Virus record (IMG/VR): IMGVR_UViG_3300010371_000001
Span: 38,274-102,273 of that record
Length of the DNA stretch: 64,000 nt
From: a virus
Strand: one strand, 5' to 3'
Below, piece by piece: positions 4,467 through 58,045 of the stretch. The notes beneath the pieces are model-generated. The model was given only the letters and a program-made list of their open reading frames with translations. It was not told the DNA's origin and ran no database searches. The position numbers and the translations under genes were made by a program. How positions within the stretch are numbered: the first letter of the stretch is position 1; each line of letters opens with the position of its first letter.

Positions 4467-6092
4467 ATGCCCGCTCAAACGATCCCGGTGGGCCAGTATG
4501 CGGATAGTCTGACTGAAGAGACGATCCAACTGGTTCAACAGCGCCTACAAACGGCGAGTGTGACCCGCAACATCAACACCACCACTGGCCTCATTGGCTA
4601 CGATCTGCGTGGTCCTGCGGCTGTCGTGGTGCCAGTAGATACCCCGCTCGTCAACTTCATTCCTCGCGTCAACAATGTTGATCGCTCATCAGACCGGCAT
4701 CACTGGAAAGCCATCCAGTCCTTTGGCTGGAACCAGGTCTCAGGCTTGCCTGGTGTTCGCCAGCAGGCTGCCCTTTCATCGGGTGGCGATCTGCCCTACT
4801 CAACGTTGGACCTGTTCAACACATTCCAGAACATCGCCGTCGATCAGTCCATCACCATGCAGGCCGTTGATCGCGCCGGACTCTTGGAAGGTGATCTGCG
4901 CGCCCGTCGCTTTGGTGAGTTGATCTTTGCGTTCAAGCTCATCGAAGAGAACTGGCTGACGCACTATAGCGACTACCTGTGGGCACCTGCCACACCGTTG
5001 CAGCCCACGACGAAGTCCAGTGGCGGTACCATTGCCGACGGCACCTACTTTGTGTTCGTGAGCGCTACCAATGCGAATGGCGAAACCTTTGCCACTCAGG
5101 CGGCGGCGACAGTCGTCTGTGCATCGGGTGGTGCGAACACCAACACCATCTCATGCACGTATTTCACGGTACCCAACGCAACAGGCTACAACGTGTATGT
5201 GGGTACTGCTGCGAACTCCGCACGCAAGCAGGTGGCCGCGAATTTCAGTGTCCCCAATGGTGCTCTGCCCACCCAGAGCGTCCTCAACATGAACGGCAAC
5301 TCAAGTTTCACGCTCACCAGTATCACGACTGGCGCGAACCAGTTGCCCGCCAGCAATACCGCTGTAGTCGCACAGGATAACGCCTCGTATAACAGCCTAC
5401 CCATCACCAACAATGGCCTCATGGGCCTCATCTTTGGTGGCGGCAACCAAAACTACTCGTCGGGCGTCAACCCCGGACAATCCTCGGCTCCCACGCCGCT
5501 CAGCACCTTTACGGCGGCTGGATCGAATGCCGGGACCGTGGCAACGTCTGGTGGCTTGGGCGTCAATACGATGGGCTGTACTATCCTGCAACCCGCAGCG
5601 GCGAATGGCAAGCTTGCCTACAGCGATATCACCACGGCCTTGCTCATCTTCTACAACCAGGCACGTGCGAAACCGGATAAGATGTGGTGTTCCCCGCAGG
5701 ATAACCAGACGGTGACGAACATCCTCATGAATGCCGGTGGCACTCGCGTGATCTTAAACCCGACGACCGACGACGTGGGTAACATCACGGCTGGTGGCCG
5801 CGTGGGGCGCTTTTGGAACCCCACGACGAACTCGCCGATTGACATTGAGGTATTGCCCTTCTTGCCGCAAGGCACGATCTTATTCGGTTCCACTGTCATG
5901 CCCTACCCGGCCCCCGGCTTTGAGGGTTCGACCATGTGCGTGATGGAAAACAAACCCTATACCGGACTGGATTTCCAGCCGACGCGTGCCAACCCCGTGT
6001 ACGCCTATGAGGTCTACACTGACCAGGTTTTAAAAGTGACATTTCTGGGCGGATTTGGCGCTATTACAGGCATAATCCCCGGTACTTCGTAG
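4467..6092 (+). CDS. Major capsid protein with an inserted Ig/FN3-like domain
   Basis: The 541-residue product should form the icosahedral shell. The N-terminal 160 residues and the C-terminal 230 residues look like an HK97-fold capsid protein: a helix-rich start with ETIQLVQQRL, then later DITTALLIFYNQARAKPDK, and a C-terminal strand set around MENKPYTGLDFQPTRANPVYAYE. Residues about 172-300 are Thr/Ser/Asn-rich with YFVFVSATNANGETF and NATGYNVYVGTA, which is typical of a beta-sandwich insertion displayed on the capsid surface. The gene lies directly after the protease-scaffold gene, as expected. ATG 4467 has GAAAGG upstream; in-frame starts at 4440 (GTG) and 4443 (ATG) would add up to nine residues and cannot be excluded. 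Confidence 0.82.
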   Translation: MPAQTIPVGQYADSLTEETIQLVQQRLQTASVTRNINTTTGLIGYDLRGPAAVVVPVDTPLVNFIPRVNNVDRSSDRHHWKAIQSFGWNQVSGLPGVRQQAALSSGGDLPYSTLDLFNTFQNIAVDQSITMQAVDRAGLLEGDLRARRFGELIFAFKLIEENWLTHYSDYLWAPATPLQPTTKSSGGTIADGTYFVFVSATNANGETFATQAAATVVCASGGANTNTISCTYFTVPNATGYNVYVGTAANSARKQVAANFSVPNGALPTQSVLNMNGNSSFTLTSITTGANQLPASNTAVVAQDNASYNSLPITNNGLMGLIFGGGNQNYSSGVNPGQSSAPTPLSTFTAAGSNAGTVATSGGLGVNTMGCTILQPAAANGKLAYSDITTALLIFYNQARAKPDKMWCSPQDNQTVTNILMNAGGTRVILNPTTDDVGNITAGGRVGRFWNPTTNSPIDIEVLPFLPQGTILFGSTVMPYPAPGFEGSTMCVMENKPYTGLDFQPTRANPVYAYEVYTDQVLKVTFLGGFGAITGIIPGTS

Positions 6093-6117
6093 CTTGGTCG
6101 CTTAGGAGAGATCACGC

Positions 6118-6441
6118 ATGGCAACCAAGAAAGCGAAAGAGGAGGCGGCACACGTGTCGCCTCCTGCCCTTGAACCGCTCTATTCCATTTCACTGCGCAT
6201 GCAAGTGAGTTCACTGGCAGGTGATGCTGAATATCACTTACGCATGCGGCGAGATGAGATTGAAGGCATCCTTAGCGGCAAAGCCACGTGTGTGCGCTTG
6301 CCGTCACGCTACGGGCCATCTCGTGCGCTCGGCCACGCAAATGATGAGTGGCGCTTCCTACCGCTCAGCAATATCGTGGAAATTACCCTCTTTGACTTTG
6401 AATGGCCTGCGGCGGACTACATCGCCGAGGCGGAAGGGTGA
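6118..6441 (+). CDS. Small protein of the head module, unknown
   Basis: This 107-residue protein follows the capsid gene and has the ribosome site TAGGAGAG before ATG. It starts with a charged Lys/Glu/Ala stretch. A compact region follows with RRDEIEGILSGKA and LPLSNIVEITLFDFEW. No family is recognised. The C-terminal half resembles a small beta-rich fold that could bind capsid or act in head completion, but this is only positional inference. The next gene starts 3 bases after its stop, so the two are surely co-transcribed. Confidence 0.6.
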   Translation: MATKKAKEEAAHVSPPALEPLYSISLRMQVSSLAGDAEYHLRMRRDEIEGILSGKATCVRLPSRYGPSRALGHANDEWRFLPLSNIVEITLFDFEWPAADYIAEAEG

Positions 6442-6444
6442 GAT

Positions 6445-7647
6445 ATGGCTTCTCAGACCAGTTCCACCGTCAATCATGACGGGAACAACGTGCCATCGGA
6501 TGCGGTATACGTACCGTCATCGACGCCTAATAGCTTTCCAGCGGGAACGGGCGTCATTAATGCCCTCGGCGGCACCGTTGTCACCGATGCGAACAACAAC
6601 ACCGCGGCGGCACAAGTGCTGCAACTGGGCGACCGCACTTTGCCAACTCAGTGTGCGGCTGTTGACCCAGCGGGCAACCTTGCTGTCAAACTGGGCAGTG
6701 GTAGCACGCCCAGCATCGTGCAAAAAGCCAGCAGCGTCAGCACTGGCTCGGTGACGACGCTCACCGCCACCTTCACCAGCAACGTGACAGCAGGCAATAC
6801 CCTCGTGGTTTCTTGTGGCGTGGGCAACAACGCTGCCATTGCCGTGACCGACACGCTTGGCAACACCTATACCCAAGCGTCGCTGGTAGCGAACTCGACC
6901 ACCTTTGAAGCAGCGGTGTTCTTTGCCCCAGTGAAACTCAGTGGGGCCAACACCGTCACCATCACCGTGACCAGTGCCTCGGCGGCGATGGAAATCTACG
7001 AGGTGTCCGGCATCCTGTCGCAGGTTCCGGGCCAGCCGAGTAATGCCAGTACTGGCACTGGCACCGGCACCACCGCTTCCACATCCAACATCGGCGCTGC
7101 GGCCCCAGCATCCCTGGCGTTCCTGGCGGTCTCGGTGGGTACAGCGGCCCAAGCTGTCTCTGTCAGCACGAACACTACATGGACACTGGACAGCACGCAG
7201 AACAGCGCAGGCACCCCGGCGGGCCTGTTCACGTTTGGCGCGCTCAGTCAGAGTGTCAACAATGTGTCCGGCGTGTTGCCCAAAGCGACCCTGGCGGGTT
7301 CCGAGCCGTGGGCGGCGGCCAGCGCGCTCTTCCGCACCGCAGCGGTGCCAGTGGAAGGCACAGTGAGTGTTGGCGGCTACCAGAAGACCAACATCACGAG
7401 TGCCACGACCACGCTGGTGAAAACTGGTGCGGGTGTGCTGCACAGTGTGACGGTCAATAAGATGGTGGCCTCGGCCACGGTCGAGTTGGATGACGCCGTG
7501 ACGAACACTAACTCGTTCGGCATCATCACGCTGCCTGGCACCGTCACCAGCATGGCCCCCTTCACGCTCATCTATGACGCGCCGTTCAGTACTGGTCTGT
7601 CGATTACGACGAGCCAGGCGACGGATGTCACCGTGGTGTGGAAGTAA
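6445..7647 (+). CDS. Ig-like decoration or fibre protein
   Basis: The 400-residue product is Ser/Thr/Ala/Gly-rich and almost lacks Lys and Cys, as in displayed virion proteins. A central domain (about residues 90-200) reads as a beta-sandwich: repeated alternation such as TLTATFTSNVTAGNTLVVSC and NTVTITVTS. A Gly/Thr linker (TGTGTGTTAST) separates it from a second beta-rich domain. The last 100 residues (EGTVSVGGYQKTNITSAT onward) look like a small structural module. Its place between capsid and connector genes suggests a head decoration protein. No enzyme motif is visible. The start codon follows the previous stop by only 3 bases. Confidence 0.6.
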   Translation: MASQTSSTVNHDGNNVPSDAVYVPSSTPNSFPAGTGVINALGGTVVTDANNNTAAAQVLQLGDRTLPTQCAAVDPAGNLAVKLGSGSTPSIVQKASSVSTGSVTTLTATFTSNVTAGNTLVVSCGVGNNAAIAVTDTLGNTYTQASLVANSTTFEAAVFFAPVKLSGANTVTITVTSASAAMEIYEVSGILSQVPGQPSNASTGTGTGTTASTSNIGAAAPASLAFLAVSVGTAAQAVSVSTNTTWTLDSTQNSAGTPAGLFTFGALSQSVNNVSGVLPKATLAGSEPWAAASALFRTAAVPVEGTVSVGGYQKTNITSATTTLVKTGAGVLHSVTVNKMVASATVELDDAVTNTNSFGIITLPGTVTSMAPFTLIYDAPFSTGLSITTSQATDVTVVWK

Positions 7648-33964: not shown

Positions 33965-33992
33965 GCGCCCTGAGTGATTTGACTCAGGGCGC
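33965..33992 (+). terminator. Rho-independent terminator of the HigBA-like operon
   Basis: GCGCCCTGAGT and ACTCAGGGCGC form a perfect 11-base-pair stem with the loop GATTTG, followed by TCTCTTTA. It lies between convergent operons. The stem resembles that of the terminator at 52183-52210. Confidence 0.85.
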
Positions 33993-34522: not shown

Positions 34523-34609
34523 CTAGTGGACGTGCGTGACTATGAGCCACGCCGTCACCAGAGCCACCGCAACGAGCATCGCCAGCATGCCCAGGCATTG
34601 CACTCTCAT
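34523..34609 (-). CDS. 28-residue membrane peptide
   Basis: The ATG overlaps the stop of the upstream gene (ATGA), which indicates coupled translation. The peptide, beginning MRVQCLGMLAMLVAVALV, is one membrane segment ending in a short polar tail. It is the third tiny membrane protein around csrA. Between 34322 and 34522 I see only small GC-rich inverted repeats (for example CCCGCCG/CGGCGGG). Confidence 0.45.
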   Translation of the reverse strand: MRVQCLGMLAMLVAVALVTAWLIVTHVH

Positions 34610-34773
34610 GGCCGCACCGTGGCAATCGCGCCCGCCACGGCCACCACTGCGATGAGCAGCATCGCACCTGCGACGATCATCCCCAGCATGATGACATGGC
34701 GCTTGTCGATGGGCGAGACCGCATCGGATGGGGTATCATCGTTATCCACGGGGTTATCCACTGGATTGTGCAT
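34606..34773 (-). CDS. Small single-span membrane protein
   Basis: The 55-residue protein has an acidic N-terminal half (PVDNPVDNDD) and one membrane segment (IMLGMIVAGAMLLIAVVAVA). It overlaps the end of csrA by 20 bases. The start is uncertain: ATG 34773 has GGAGAGG immediately adjacent, GTG 34761 has better spacing, and ATG 34806 would give 66 residues. It forms a compact unit with csrA and two other membrane peptides. Confidence 0.5.
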   Translation of the reverse strand: MHNPVDNPVDNDDTPSDAVSPIDKRHVIMLGMIVAGAMLLIAVVAVAGAIATVRP

Positions 34774-34954
34774 CCTCTCCGTGTGGTGGGCTGGGCATGC
34801 CCGCATCGTGCAGCAGCTCGTCTCTGACGATGATGATATCTGGCGGGGCTTCGATGCCCAGCTTCACCCGATCCCCCTCAACGGTCAGGATGATGATCTT
34901 GACGACGCCATTCAACACGATGGCTTCACCGGCCTTGCGGCGTAAAACGAGCAT
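34754..34954 (-). CDS. csrA: CsrA-family translational regulator
   Basis: The 66-residue protein begins MLVLRRKAGEAIVLNGVVKI and continues with VKLGIEAPPDIIIVRDELL, a near-textbook CsrA (usual length about 60-70). CsrA dimers bind GGA-containing mRNA hairpins and block or stabilise transcripts. The RNA-binding residues near the N-terminus (L4, R6) and in the IVRDE stretch are kept. The ribosome site is AAGGAAGGAAG. It sits late in the leftward operon among tiny membrane peptides. A phage copy could redirect host motility or carbon metabolism, or control phage messages; targets are unknown. Confidence 0.88.
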   Translation of the reverse strand: MLVLRRKAGEAIVLNGVVKIIILTVEGDRVKLGIEAPPDIIIVRDELLHDAGMPSPPHGEDAQSSG

Positions 34955-34968
34955 CTATGCTTCCTTCC

Positions 34969-35076
34969 TTAGTGATTTCCAATAGCAATGGCGCATAGCA
35001 GGCCAGCAAGGATGGCAAGGATAACGAATCCCACCACCAGGCCAGATGTTATAAGCCGACGTGACCCATTCTCCAT
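34969..35076 (-). CDS. 35-residue membrane peptide upstream of csrA
   Basis: The peptide has a charged start (MENGSRR) and one long membrane segment (ITSGLVVGFVILAILAGLL), ending 14 bases before the csrA start. A weak ribosome site (AAAGAGGTG) precedes it. The pattern of charged head plus single span fits small membrane regulators. Function is unknown. Confidence 0.5.
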   Translation of the reverse strand: MENGSRRLITSGLVVGFVILAILAGLLCAIAIGNH

Positions 35077-35145: not shown

Positions 35146-35206
35146 GGTGGGTTTTGGCACGGGGAAATGGTGAAGGTTTTGGTTAAGCCAAGGCGGCGTC
35201 ACAGGA

Positions 35207-35230
35207 CAATTATTAGGTGACTAATAATTG
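35207..35230. repeat. AT-rich palindrome directly after parB
   Basis: CAATTATTAG and CTAATAATTG pair perfectly (10 base pairs, loop GTGA) 13 bases after the parB stop. The AT-rich stem is a poor terminator, so a protein-binding site, possibly for the partition system, is an alternative. Confidence 0.5.
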
Positions 35231-35242
35231 CCCTCAAACCCT

Positions 35243-46787: not shown

Positions 46788-48443
46788 CTACATCGGTAAC
46801 ATGGGCTGAGCAATCCACCCTAGCGTCTGAACCTTTGAAGGCGTGTCGAACGCCTTGCCGTCTAATAAGTCTTGAATCGTCCTGATTTGCAGGCGATGAT
46901 ATTCTTTGCCAAGATAGGTATATGTCCCAGCAGAAGCTGCTTCGGATATCATGCCCTTTGTTGGCTCTTGTAGACAGATGAACCCGGCCATTTCGGAATT
47001 GGGTTCCCGTTCCAAAACCCCGCGTAATTCACGCACAAATGCAGGTGTTAGTTTTCCGCCCTTGACGGATATGACCATATTTTTGAGGCTATCCCCTGTT
47101 TCAAAGTGGATGCGGCCATCCACTCCCAGATCGCCAGAATGTTTCGTGCTAGAAAATCCCCCGGCAAGCTCCACTGACCAATGCTGAAATTGCCGTGGAT
47201 CGCGGTTAAAGAGATCCTGAGCGCCTTCAACACTCAAGGGAACACCGCTAACTTCATAGTGTTCACCTTCTTGCAATCCGTAGCGACGGAAAAGGACATC
47301 ACGCACAAGCTGAACGGAGAGAATAGCGATATCGCATCCTATCCATTTGCGCCCAGACAAATGTGCGGCATAAATTGCCGTCCCGCAGCCACAAAACGGG
47401 TCAAAGACCACATCTCCCGGATTACTGCTTGCGGTGATGATGCGATCTAGGAGAGCGATAGGCTTTTGCGTAGGGTAGCCCAGTCGCTCGGAGGCCGATG
47501 CCTGAATTGGTGGGATATCATCCCATAAATTGCCAACTTTGGGAGGGGCCACCTCATTGAGATAAATCTTGCGGAGTGGGCGGCCCTTGCTATTCCAGGC
47601 TAGTTTGCCTAGTCGGTCAAACTCCTCAAGTTTCTCTCGTGTCATCATCCACCCATATTGGGGTGTGTAGCCCTTATATTCATAGATCAAGTTGGGTCGT
47701 ATCCCTAACGCCGCATTGCGCTCAATATCGTGTAATCGGTATCGCCTTCCATCCGGTTCCACGAAACGATAAAAATTCTCTACATAACGCTCATCACGCT
47801 CCTGAGTAGGGGGGTAAAATACGTAGCGATTGGTTTTGCTATAAAAGAAAATCGTATCAGTGATGTCACCTAGCCTGCGTGAAGTTGTATTATGAGCGGT
47901 CGTGCGCTTCCAAATAATCTCATTGCGGAAGTTCTGATGCCCGAACACTCCGTCCAGGATGACCTTGATATAGTGGCTAGCAGTAGAATCGCAATGAAGA
48001 TACAGGGAACCAGTTGGTTTAAGGATGCGACGCATTTCAAACAAGCGGTAAGACATGTACACCAGGTACGCAAGTAACCTTGGTTGTGTATGCCTAAGTG
48101 CATTGATCCAGGTTGCCCAAAAGGCTACCAAATCCTCATCAGCCCCGTACTCCCGAAATGACTGGGGCATATTGCGCACCATTTCTTCCTTTTCCGGGTC
48201 CATATCCCAGGCATCACAAAACGCTTCTTCCTGCTCTGGTACAGGTAGACCAGTGAGATTTTTGTAGATTAAGTTGTAGTTTCGCTGGCTATTGAATGGG
48301 GGATCGAGGTAAATGAGATCGACGGAAGCACTGGTCATTTCTCGCATAATGGTAAGGTTATCACCGTAAAATAAGTGGTTGTTTCTTATCCGCGTCTCCA
48401 CATCGAAGATGCCTGGTAGGTGTTGTGGATGCCTTTTGGTCAC
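46788..48443 (-). CDS. DNA methyltransferase fused to Mrr-like nuclease domain (copy 1)
   Basis: The 551-residue protein is an N4-Cys/N6-Ade methyltransferase of the beta class order: the catalytic DPPF motif at 47-50 (in IYLDPPFNS) precedes the SAM-binding DPFCGCGT near 348. The C-terminal 150 residues look like a PD-(D/E)xK nuclease of the Mrr type: SGDLGVDGRI near 437-447 and VISVKGG near 453-459. One chain may both modify and cut DNA, or cut only unmodified DNA. The start is GTG 48443 behind AAGGGG. An operator-like inverted repeat lies upstream (48470-48487). A diverged copy lies at 56579-58045. Confidence 0.85.
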   Translation of the reverse strand: MTKRHPQHLPGIFDVETRIRNNHLFYGDNLTIMREMTSASVDLIYLDPPFNSQRNYNLIYKNLTGLPVPEQEEAFCDAWDMDPEKEEMVRNMPQSFREYGADEDLVAFWATWINALRHTQPRLLAYLVYMSYRLFEMRRILKPTGSLYLHCDSTASHYIKVILDGVFGHQNFRNEIIWKRTTAHNTTSRRLGDITDTIFFYSKTNRYVFYPPTQERDERYVENFYRFVEPDGRRYRLHDIERNAALGIRPNLIYEYKGYTPQYGWMMTREKLEEFDRLGKLAWNSKGRPLRKIYLNEVAPPKVGNLWDDIPPIQASASERLGYPTQKPIALLDRIITASSNPGDVVFDPFCGCGTAIYAAHLSGRKWIGCDIAILSVQLVRDVLFRRYGLQEGEHYEVSGVPLSVEGAQDLFNRDPRQFQHWSVELAGGFSSTKHSGDLGVDGRIHFETGDSLKNMVISVKGGKLTPAFVRELRGVLEREPNSEMAGFICLQEPTKGMISEAASAGTYTYLGKEYHRLQIRTIQDLLDGKAFDTPSKVQTLGWIAQPMLPM

Positions 48444-53509: not shown

Positions 53510-53527
53510 TTCGAGAGGAATCTCGAA
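53510..53527 (+). other. GNRA-type hairpin at a ribosome site
   Basis: TTCGAGA and TCTCGAA close the tetraloop GGAA, ending right at the AAGGAG ribosome site of the gene at 53543. Such a placement could modulate translation; GGAA is a common CsrA contact, which makes the phage CsrA a candidate binder. Confidence 0.4.
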
Positions 53528-55235: not shown

Positions 55236-56537
55236 ATGGAGATCGTCCGGGGATACAAGACTGAACTGGATTTGAATAACAAGCAGCGCACGGCATGTCT
55301 CCAGCATGCGGGGTGTGCCAGATTCGCCTACAATTGGGGACTGGCACGCAAACAAGCGGCAATGGCAGCACGCAAAGCAGCGGCAGATCCTAAGTCAGTC
55401 AAGATTCCCACCGCCATCGATCTCCATCGGGAACTGAATGCCTTGAAATCCACCGAGTTCCCTTGGATGTACGAAAGCTCAAAATGCGGACCCCAAGAGG
55501 CGTTGCGCGACCTGGACACGGCATTCAGCAACTTCTTTGCCAAGCGTGCCAAGTACCCCAAGTTCAAGAAACGCAGCAAGGGCATCGGCTCGTTCACGCT
55601 GACGGGAACCATTCATGTTGGTCCGGACTGGATTCAGTTACCCGTCATTGGGAAGGTGCGATTGTTTGAACATGGCTACTTGCCCCAAGACACGGATCTG
55701 CATACCAAAGACCGCAAGACGCTCAAGAAACGTGAGAAGAAAGGGCGCATCATCACAGGGCCAGCCCACTACCTGAGCGCGACTGTATCTGAACGTGCGG
55801 GACATTGGTTCGTTTCTGTGCAAGTCAAAGACATCGTTCCTGACCCTGAACCAGCGACGGGTGAACCAATTGGCGTTGACTTGGGCATCAAAACATTAGC
55901 CGTATGTTCGGATGGGCAAGAGGTTCCTAATCCCAAGGCGTTGCGGGGCAACCTGGGCAAACTCAAAAGGACACAGCGCCATCACAGTAAGCGCAAGAAA
56001 GGTAGTAACAACCGCAAGAAGTCCAAACAAGAAGTAGCCCGCGTCCATTATCGGATTGCCAATATCCGAGAAGATGCTTTGCATCAGGCGACCGCGAAGA
56101 TCACGGCAAAAGCCAAGCCGCCATCCAAGCGACCGCAAGCGATCATCTTGGAAGATCTCAACGTGGCGGGCATGCTCAAAAATCACAAGCTGGCACAGGC
56201 GATAGCGGACGTGGGGCTAGGGGAGTTTCGCCGCCAGATGAGCTACAAATCTCTCTGGTATGGCAATCGGCTGTATCTGGCCCATCGTTTCTTCCCTTCA
56301 ACTCAACTGTGTTCACAGTGCCATCGTTTGCCCTCGGTGCCACTGGATTTGAGCGTGCGGACCTATGAGTGTGAGCATTGCGGCCTGGTCCTTGACCGGG
56401 ATCTCAATGCCGCACGCAATTTACTGTGGCTGTATACCGCTAGTTCAGCGGAAATCGACGCCTGTGGAGAGATCGTAAGACCAATGGTGCTTGCACTAAA
56501 GGCAGTCTCGTTGAAGCAGGAACCGGATGCCACTTAG
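55236..56537 (+). CDS. tnpB: TnpB RNA-guided nuclease, intact active site
   Basis: The 433-residue protein has the RuvC-like residues in place: D215 in GVDLGIKTLAV, E306 in IILEDLNVAGM and D389 in DRDLNAARNL, plus the zinc finger CSQCHRLPS...CEHCG. The N-terminal helix-turn-helix region begins YKTELDLNNKQRTACLQHAG. TnpB cuts DNA next to a short motif, guided by a right-end RNA. Here it starts 11 bases after one phage gene (TAGGAG site) and ends 41 bases before the next, with no visible transposon ends. The matching IS607-type recombinase lies 3 kb upstream. It appears embedded in a phage operon. Confidence 0.88.
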   Translation: MEIVRGYKTELDLNNKQRTACLQHAGCARFAYNWGLARKQAAMAARKAAADPKSVKIPTAIDLHRELNALKSTEFPWMYESSKCGPQEALRDLDTAFSNFFAKRAKYPKFKKRSKGIGSFTLTGTIHVGPDWIQLPVIGKVRLFEHGYLPQDTDLHTKDRKTLKKREKKGRIITGPAHYLSATVSERAGHWFVSVQVKDIVPDPEPATGEPIGVDLGIKTLAVCSDGQEVPNPKALRGNLGKLKRTQRHHSKRKKGSNNRKKSKQEVARVHYRIANIREDALHQATAKITAKAKPPSKRPQAIILEDLNVAGMLKNHKLAQAIADVGLGEFRRQMSYKSLWYGNRLYLAHRFFPSTQLCSQCHRLPSVPLDLSVRTYECEHCGLVLDRDLNAARNLLWLYTASSAEIDACGEIVRPMVLALKAVSLKQEPDAT

Positions 56538-56578
56538 GCGTGTCCTATTTGGGTAAATTCTGGAGAACGGACATCCAC

Positions 56579-58045
56579 ATGGCCAGCAACCAGTTGTACT
56601 ACGGCGACAACCTCGACATCTTGCGTAAGAAAATTCATGACGAGACGATAGATCTCTGCTACATTGACCCACCGTTTAACTCCAAACGCACCTACAACCA
56701 AATTTACAACAATATCGGTACTGAAGATCGCGCGCAATCCCAAGCATTTATCGATACCTGGACATGGGATGATCGCGCTATTGCCGGATTCCAAGAAATC
56801 CTCAGCAATGATCAGGCGCGATTTACCAGTCAGACAGTTGAGCTAATCAAGGGACTGTATCATGTTTTGGGTTTTGGCAGCTTGTTAGCATACTTGGTGA
56901 GTATGACTTTGCGTGTCACAGAAATCCACCGTGTTTTGAAACCGACTGGAAGCTTCTACCTTCATTGCGATCCAACCTCAAGTCACTACCTGAAACTGGT
57001 ACTCGATGCGATCTTCGTACCTACTGGCGGTGATTTTCAGAATGAGATTGCTTGGTGTTATGGCTCAGGAGGGGCAAGTAAACGGCATTTTTCGAGAAAA
57101 CATGACATCCTGTTTTTCTACACAAAAGGAGCATACTACACCTTTAACGTGGATGGTGTGAGAGAGCCATATAGTTCACCTGAGAAAGTAGAATTCAAAG
57201 TTATTGGAGATAAGCGGTATCAGAGAAAAAACCCTCTTGGTCGCATACCGTTTGACTGGTGGCAAATGCCAATACTGACAAATACTGCCAAAGAACGGCT
57301 TGGCTACCCCACACAAAAGCCAGAGGCATTGCTTGAACGAATTATTGAGGCAAGTTCTAATGAAGGCGATACTGTCCTTGATGCCTATTGCGGCTGTGGA
57401 ACAACGATTGCTGTAGCACAACACCTGAAACGCAAATGGATCGGTATTGATATCACCTATCAGGCAATTGCACTCATTTTAGAGCGAATCGAGGATCAGT
57501 TTAGCAAAGAGGCGCTTGACGCCATTACGCTTGATGGCATTCCAAGTGATATAGATTCAGCCAAAGCTCTCGCTCATAAGCAGGATGATCGGGTGCGCAA
57601 GGAATTTGAGAAGTGGGCCGTCTTGACCTACACCAATAATCGGGCCATCATCCATCAAAAGAAGGGTGCAGACGGTGGGGTTGATGGCGTTGCCTACTTT
57701 TTGACCAGTCATTCAGGCAATGCCAAGATCATCTTTCAGGTGAAATCGGGCAAAGTAGGACGTGGCGACATTGCAAAATTACGTGGGGATATGCAACGAG
57801 AGTCAGCAGCGTTGGCGGTATTTATTACACTTGAACACCCTACTGGACCTATGATCGCTGAAGCAAAGGCCGCTGGACGCTATTATCATGAGATCATGGA
57901 CAGGCACTACGATACGATTGCGATTATGGCTATCCAAGATATCCTTGATCGCCAACGCCTCAGCATTCCTCTGAATTTTGAAGTCATTCGATCCGCACAA
58001 CGGAAAGCTTCCGAGGTTCAACTCTCACTTGTCGATAGCATGTAG
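56579..58045 (+). CDS. DNA methyltransferase fused to Mrr-like nuclease domain (copy 2)
   Basis: The 488-residue protein has DPPF at 30-33 (CYIDPPFNS), the SAM motif DAYCGCGT near 268 and RLGYPTQKPEALLERII between, as in copy 1 at 46788-48443. The C-terminal domain has GGVDGVAYF near 365 and IIFQVKSGK near 387, a D...QxK active site of the Mrr type, then LEHPTGPMIAEAK. The two copies share domain order but differ widely in sequence, so they may read different targets. ATG 56579 follows GGAGA; GTG 56540 is an alternative. A bidirectional terminator follows. Confidence 0.85.
   Translation: MASNQLYYGDNLDILRKKIHDETIDLCYIDPPFNSKRTYNQIYNNIGTEDRAQSQAFIDTWTWDDRAIAGFQEILSNDQARFTSQTVELIKGLYHVLGFGSLLAYLVSMTLRVTEIHRVLKPTGSFYLHCDPTSSHYLKLVLDAIFVPTGGDFQNEIAWCYGSGGASKRHFSRKHDILFFYTKGAYYTFNVDGVREPYSSPEKVEFKVIGDKRYQRKNPLGRIPFDWWQMPILTNTAKERLGYPTQKPEALLERIIEASSNEGDTVLDAYCGCGTTIAVAQHLKRKWIGIDITYQAIALILERIEDQFSKEALDAITLDGIPSDIDSAKALAHKQDDRVRKEFEKWAVLTYTNNRAIIHQKKGADGGVDGVAYFLTSHSGNAKIIFQVKSGKVGRGDIAKLRGDMQRESAALAVFITLEHPTGPMIAEAKAAGRYYHEIMDRHYDTIAIMAIQDILDRQRLSIPLNFEVIRSAQRKASEVQLSLVDSM

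Follow-up and report, generated by a model that had tools for sequence, protein, structure and literature searches.

What might a CsrA-family RNA-binding protein do for a virus that encodes it among several tiny membrane-protein frames? The locus that raises this question lies in a stretch of 64,000 nucleotides (hereafter the window), which corresponds to bases 38274-102273 of a virus record of 102,273 bases. An initial annotation described a near-consensus csrA gene placed between frames for 35-aa and 55-aa single-span membrane proteins and followed by a coupled 28-aa frame. ORF calling reproduced these four frames exactly, with the same coordinates, lengths and order, on the minus strand. 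The annotation did not include the wider context: the cluster runs upstream into genes encoding ParB and ParA, and downstream into a zinc-ribbon gene and a terminator-like hairpin (Table 1).

Table 1. Features of the csrA cluster (38191 to 33965), listed in the direction of the minus strand; positions are those of the window.
Feature	Position	Strand	Basis and remarks
Multi-span membrane protein, 272 aa	37373..38191	-	ORF; no Pfam match; first cluster gene considered
ParA-like partition ATPase, 338 aa	36344..37360	-	Pfam CbiA 8.5e-14, AAA_31 8e-13; PHROG 164 ParA-like 4e-22
ParB-like protein, 365 aa	35243..36340	-	Pfam HTH_ParB 2.2e-10, 41 bits vs cut-off 22.6
Palindrome between parB and pepA	35203..35234	.	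14-nt arms, 93% complementary, 4-nt spacer
pepA, 35-aa single-span membrane peptide	34969..35076	-	ORF, hydropathy 3.06, ATG and SD
csrA, 66-aa CsrA-family RNA-binding protein	34754..34954	-	PF02599 1.8e-17, alignment, Foldseek
pepB, 55-aa single-span membrane protein	34606..34773	-	ORF, hydropathy 2.89
pepC, 28-aa membrane peptide	34523..34609	-	ORF, ATGA overlap with pepB
Zinc-ribbon-like protein, 107 aa	33998..34321	-	Final gene ahead of the terminator; homologue 3' of csrA in phage L138
Terminator-like hairpin, 11-bp stem	33965..33992	.	Between convergent units

The identity of the central gene was borne out by all the comparisons performed. Its product matched PF02599 with 63.5 bits (cut-off 27; E=1.8e-17) over profile positions 1-49 of 53, and the alignment revealed the presence of L4 and R44, both critical for RNA binding by CsrA (PMC7652899); R6, K7 and R44 were invariant across the 16 aligned CsrA proteins. 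When a model of the monomer (pLDDT 79) was compared with the PDB using Foldseek, the top 15 matches were all CsrA/RsmA proteins (probability 0.97-1.00, E about 2e-3 to 6e-2). Judged by its profile match, its RNA-contact residues and the fold of the modelled monomer, the protein is a member of the CsrA/RsmA family, and it is predicted to bind GGA-containing RNA. Its highest identity to any CsrA in the annotated phage collection was below 50%.

The genes of the cluster are closely packed. The start of csrA lies 14 nt past pepA (which extends from the ATG at 35076 to the end of its stop codon at 34969) and is served by the Shine-Dalgarno (SD) sequence AAGGAAGGAAG. The pepB frame overlaps csrA by 20 nt and starts inside GGAGAGGATG, with its ATG at 34773; an alternative ATG at 34806 would give a protein of 66 aa. 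The palindrome is housed in the 166-nt gap between parB and pepA, and its core is present once in the window; it is a candidate operator or parS. A gap of 201 nt separates pepC from the zinc-ribbon gene. The cluster is presumably co-transcribed. A promoter scan returned 3 matches against 2.4 expected, which provides no evidence of promoters.

Tiny membrane frames were counted as ORFs of 25-75 aa with an ATG, an SD sequence and a strong hydrophobic segment. Nine of them are present in the whole 102 kb, whereas ten third-order Markov sequences of equal length averaged 0.6; by hydrophobicity, pepA and pepB both rank in the top four of the nine. The overlapping frames noticed initially do exist, such frames are commoner than expected by Markov chance, and they are very probably real genes. 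The pepC frame has no SD sequence of its own; its status as a real frame is supported by the ATGA overlap with pepB, by its codon pattern (GC1/2/3 0.66/0.34/0.83) and by a possible duplication. The last of these is suggested by a direct repeat shared by pepB and pepC (D1; 74% over 34 nt, in the same register) and by their similar transmembrane (TM) segments, so pepC may be derived from pepB. Searches of the fetched loci with tblastn yielded only chance-level matches to the tiny peptides, and the single database match of pepB (L121) was discarded as an Asp-rich low-complexity stretch. The peptides showed no feature indicative of sensing or of CsrA binding. They are most likely small phage membrane proteins that presumably act independently, and not CsrA sensors.

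The record as a whole is that of a phage. It encodes virion-type proteins (tape measure protein and large terminase), and it begins and ends with the same 123 bases, a direct terminal repeat indicating that the genome is circular or terminally redundant, and nearly complete. Two serine recombinases, RecT, TnpB and DNA methylases are also encoded. Virion genes, ParA/ParB and the 123-bp end repeat are thus present on one genome, a combination typical of phage-plasmids. A plasmid replication initiator was not found among the phage proteins scanned, and the presence of the serine recombinases means that integration is possible. The phage is large, probably temperate and perhaps plasmid-like, lysogeny being suggested by the recombinases together with the par genes. 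No copy of this phage was found, either integrated or as a plasmid: its ParA had no match in any of 47 Ktedonobacteria genomes at E 1e-10, the terminase relatives in these genomes were merely 31-46% identical, and there was no DNA-level match to plasmids. Used as baits against viral contigs, ParA, ParB and RecT retrieved no relatives, and csrA was absent from the records of the 11 terminase relatives searched.

Two of the DNA methylases (window positions 46788-48443 and 56540-58045) carry C-terminal restriction-endonuclease-like domains (NA-iREase1 and Mrr_cat), and may be single-chain restriction-modification enzymes.

Assignment of the host to Ktedonobacteria is well supported by sequence comparisons. 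The nearest non-phage relatives of csrA come almost exclusively from Ktedonobacteria/Chloroflexi MAGs; some are titled Proteobacteria, one of which (G003) is classed together with G002. The gene is present in 41 of the 47 genomes of the Ktedonobacteria class, in up to 8 copies. Moreover, the TnpB of the window (55236-56537; IS605/IS607 type) is 90% identical to a copy in G002 and 87% identical to one in G003, the former value pointing to recent exchange between the phage and the host group. In a csrA tree built on 52 columns, the window sequence joined L007 and a host paralogue located near ftsZ-like/ffh-like genes, with support of 90/77, which is not strong. The csrA loci L011, L015, L016-L018 and L020 were considered as prophages, and this was rejected, since they look chromosomal (ftsZ-like/ffh-like or glmU-like neighbours, judged by eye).

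Analysis of the same class also revealed amplified csrA families in the genomes G033, G034 and G035 (loci L096-L102, L105, L107-L109 and L115), with up to 8 copies, several of them in near-repeated clusters. These adjoin a gene for a large uncharacterised protein, in some cases with a PAS histidine kinase, and are probably mobile elements. In G026, two near-identical chromosomal clusters (L103:1332-5273 and L104:3815-8486) have a DNA polymerase beta clamp (DnaN) gene 5' of csrA, and are likely to be integrated elements bearing csrA.

The csrA-par association was found again in a divergent phage of 85 kb (L126/L138), whose CsrA is 68-70% identical to that of the window. Directly 5' of its csrA lie three tiny TM frames, which encode 26, 41 and 35 aa and all have an SD sequence. 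The complete order is multi-TM protein, ParA, ParB-like protein, the tiny frames, csrA, a small ORF and a 113-aa zinc-ribbon homologue. The ParA of this phage (AAA_31, 1.3e-10) is about 23% identical to that of the window, its ParB-like protein has a weak HTH_ParB match under the cut-off, and the zinc-ribbon proteins share 27% identity over 63 aa (E=3.7e-6); csrA is the best conserved of the cluster genes. In a third phage (L139), where tiny TM frames are absent, csrA is succeeded first by a multi-TM gene and then by the genes for ParA and for a ParB-like protein (HTH_ParB 7e-8). The multi-TM protein precedes ParA in the window, in L138 and in L139. The window terminase has no match in the L138 or L139 records, and therefore the shared block is not due to close kinship of the whole phages.

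The peptide sequences are not common to the window and L126, so that, at the level of the sequences compared, the small frames recur by position and not by sequence. Tiny TM ORFs within 500 bp of csrA were present at 4 of 18 distinct viral csrA loci but at none of 55 cellular ones (one-sided Fisher 0.003), or at 3 of 17 viral loci when the window was left out (0.011), although these p-values are a guide only, because the loci are related to varying degree and phages are generally richer in tiny TM frames. In the viral background, such frames have a frequency of 0.022 per kb and strand, which predicts 0.026 of them per csrA neighbourhood. Conservation of the arrangement, a matter raised by the initial annotation, therefore holds for the position of the frames near some viral csrA genes and not for the sequences of the peptides. 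A different pair of phages shares a 35-aa TM peptide (L003:5532-5639 and L144:4523-4630) about 470 nt 5' of csrA, with pS of 0.66 and pN of 0.14, which indicates purifying selection within this pair.

Several other features were observed among the loci. In the record L138 (phage G062) a sigma-70 factor with regions 2 and 4 is encoded about 1.5 kb 3' of csrA (6089-6910). A 761-aa protein of L005 (11200-13485) combines an SNF2-type helicase with N6/N4 DNA methylase domains, and a 738-aa ORF of L006 (15690-17906) has a weak match, below the cut-off, to an intein splicing domain.

We estimate at about one half the probability of our preferred reading, namely that a host-type CsrA, encoded in the par cluster of a Ktedonobacteria phage, alters host translation via GGA-containing leaders and is insensitive to FliW. 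This reading builds on features established from the sequence (the gene identities and order, the recurrence in a second phage, the tie to the host, the RNA-binding residues and the lack of N55), and it supposes expression in the lysogen, binding to host RNA targets and escape from FliW. For as long as the phage genome is maintained in the cell, CsrA would be produced alongside the partition proteins, and its dimer would bind GGA at the ribosome-binding sites of host mRNAs. It may compete for GGA leaders such as that of flagellin, and this binding would alter host translation, rather as RsmQ, a plasmid-encoded regulator, alters it in Pseudomonas. In Bacillus subtilis, CsrA blocks the SD sequence in the hag leader (PMC7652899); the flagellin leaders of the Ktedonobacteria genomes G002, G003 and G009 contain five GGA each, including that of the SD sequence.

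The host group has a fliW-csrA-fliD arrangement, and the CsrA linked with fliW carries L/I/V51 and N55, compared with A51 and S55 in the phage protein. In Campylobacter jejuni and B. subtilis, FliW binding depends on N55 (PMC7829508). Among the CsrA proteins sampled, this residue is confined to those linked with fliW or closely similar (L008, L009, L010, L012, L013, L079, L083) and to two Bacillota outliers, and it is missing from the window CsrA and from every other Ktedonobacteria paralogue. Many host paralogues thus likewise lack N55, and blindness to FliW would not set the phage apart. Nor does fliW adjoin the phage csrA, whose neighbours are parB (beyond pepA) and the tiny TM ORFs. Without N55, the phage CsrA should go on repressing flagellin mRNA where FliW silences the flagellar CsrA of the host; flagellin and other messages with GGA leaders would then be repressed.

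Targets of CsrA within the phage itself were also considered. The hairpin at 53510-53527, proposed initially as a ligand, is real: it has a perfect 7-bp stem and a GGAA loop, lies 15 nt ahead of the ATG of a 168-aa ORF, and as a single site is a reasonable candidate for binding by CsrA. However, GGA ranks only 38 of 64 triplets in the hairpin loops of the phage genome, and enrichment of such loops was rejected as a mark of phage-own targets. No Rfam family was detected within the window, which means that it contains no CsrB-like RNA known to Rfam.

It is unlikely that CsrA chiefly regulates its own cluster, binding the csrA and pepB leaders to limit CsrA and the membrane peptides, an excess of which could be harmful, and so balance the maintenance operon. 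The csrA leader contains three GGA in the interval -30..+15, a number reached by 2 of 127 called genes, and pepB starts in GGAGAGGATG, overlapping the end of csrA. Yet GGA belongs to ordinary SD sequences, the leader folds no more stably than its shuffled versions, and the doubled GGA ahead of csrA is not conserved in L126.

We also find it improbable that csrA is merely a host-derived moron of low effect and that the par flank is a tolerated insertion point collecting small early genes. Phage csrA genes are indeed found in many unrelated contexts, and small membrane ORFs abound in the genome of this phage; on the other hand, the same neighbours in two phages with such distant ParA proteins, with csrA the best conserved gene, suggest retention, and the critical CsrA residues are intact.

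Quite unlikely, in our view, is a single maintenance module composed of parA-parB, the peptides, csrA and the zinc-ribbon gene, in which the interdependent peptides and CsrA would couple partition to host translation. The peptides would then be under translational control of CsrA or would anchor or sequester it. Finally, the suggestion that membrane sensing is linked to translational control, with the tiny peptide(s) binding or signalling to CsrA and a membrane event releasing or sequestering it, is very unlikely: tiny TM frames do accompany some viral csrA loci and none of the cellular ones, and three of them stand between ParB and csrA in L138, but the peptides vary in sequence from phage to phage, contain neither a soluble domain of sensor size nor a CsrA-binding feature, and are absent from L139 despite its csrA and par genes.

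The occurrence of CsrA on phages and on plasmids is already known. The gene was detected in 30 of 2,517 phage genomes (PMC7366521), and phage CsrA proteins have been published for the Pseudomonas phi297 group ('RsmM'), Bcep22-like Lessieviruses and Vibrio phages (PMC7366521, PMC9144972). The window resembles these in that a small csrA gene is carried by a phage. In phi297, csrA lies in a leftward operon, an annotated 42-aa one-TM ORF is located two genes before it, and a ParA gene is found about 1.7 kb upstream. The initial view that the arrangement is not known from described phages was thus too strong. However, those published phages are proteobacterial, whereas the phage studied here is of Ktedonobacteria type and carries csrA immediately after parA-parB and a tiny TM frame.

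Among plasmids, RsmQ of pQBR103 is a CsrA homologue that acts on host mRNAs and switches Pseudomonas from a motile to a sessile state (PMC9928087). The phage record likewise represents a mobile element with a CsrA homologue, ParA and ParB being encoded upstream; in contrast to RsmQ, which resides on a conjugative Pseudomonas plasmid, this CsrA is phage-borne, and in the host group FliW is the suggested antagonist. A csrA gene was also reported in the replication region of Sinorhizobium meliloti plasmid pMBA19a, where it was functional in complementation (Agaras et al. 2013, cited in PMC7366521). According to that account, csrA is there also placed beside plasmid maintenance genes, but the plasmid is cryptic and its host lacks csrA, and the account as cited does not mention membrane peptides. 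The FliW-CsrA-Hag system of B. subtilis and C. jejuni (PMC7652899, PMC7829508) has its likeness in the host group, in the fliW-csrA-fliD arrangement and the GGA at the flagellin SD sequence; the phage CsrA differs in lacking N55 and in not adjoining fliW. As far as our searches show, the recurring block of partition genes, tiny TM frames and csrA in Ktedonobacteria-type phages is new, as is the N55 pattern.

Phage-borne CsrA has so far been counted in genomes, and is here placed in a recurring partition cluster. The hosts belong to a poorly studied phylum with several CsrA paralogues, one of them linked with FliW. The tiny peptides permit one test, of whether phage membrane mini-proteins are functionally tied to CsrA. 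The absent Asn55 permits another, simple one: is a FliW-blind phage CsrA used to shut flagella down or to redirect translation in the host? The sequence suggests a virus that may be able to reprogram the translation of its host, for example by switching off flagella.
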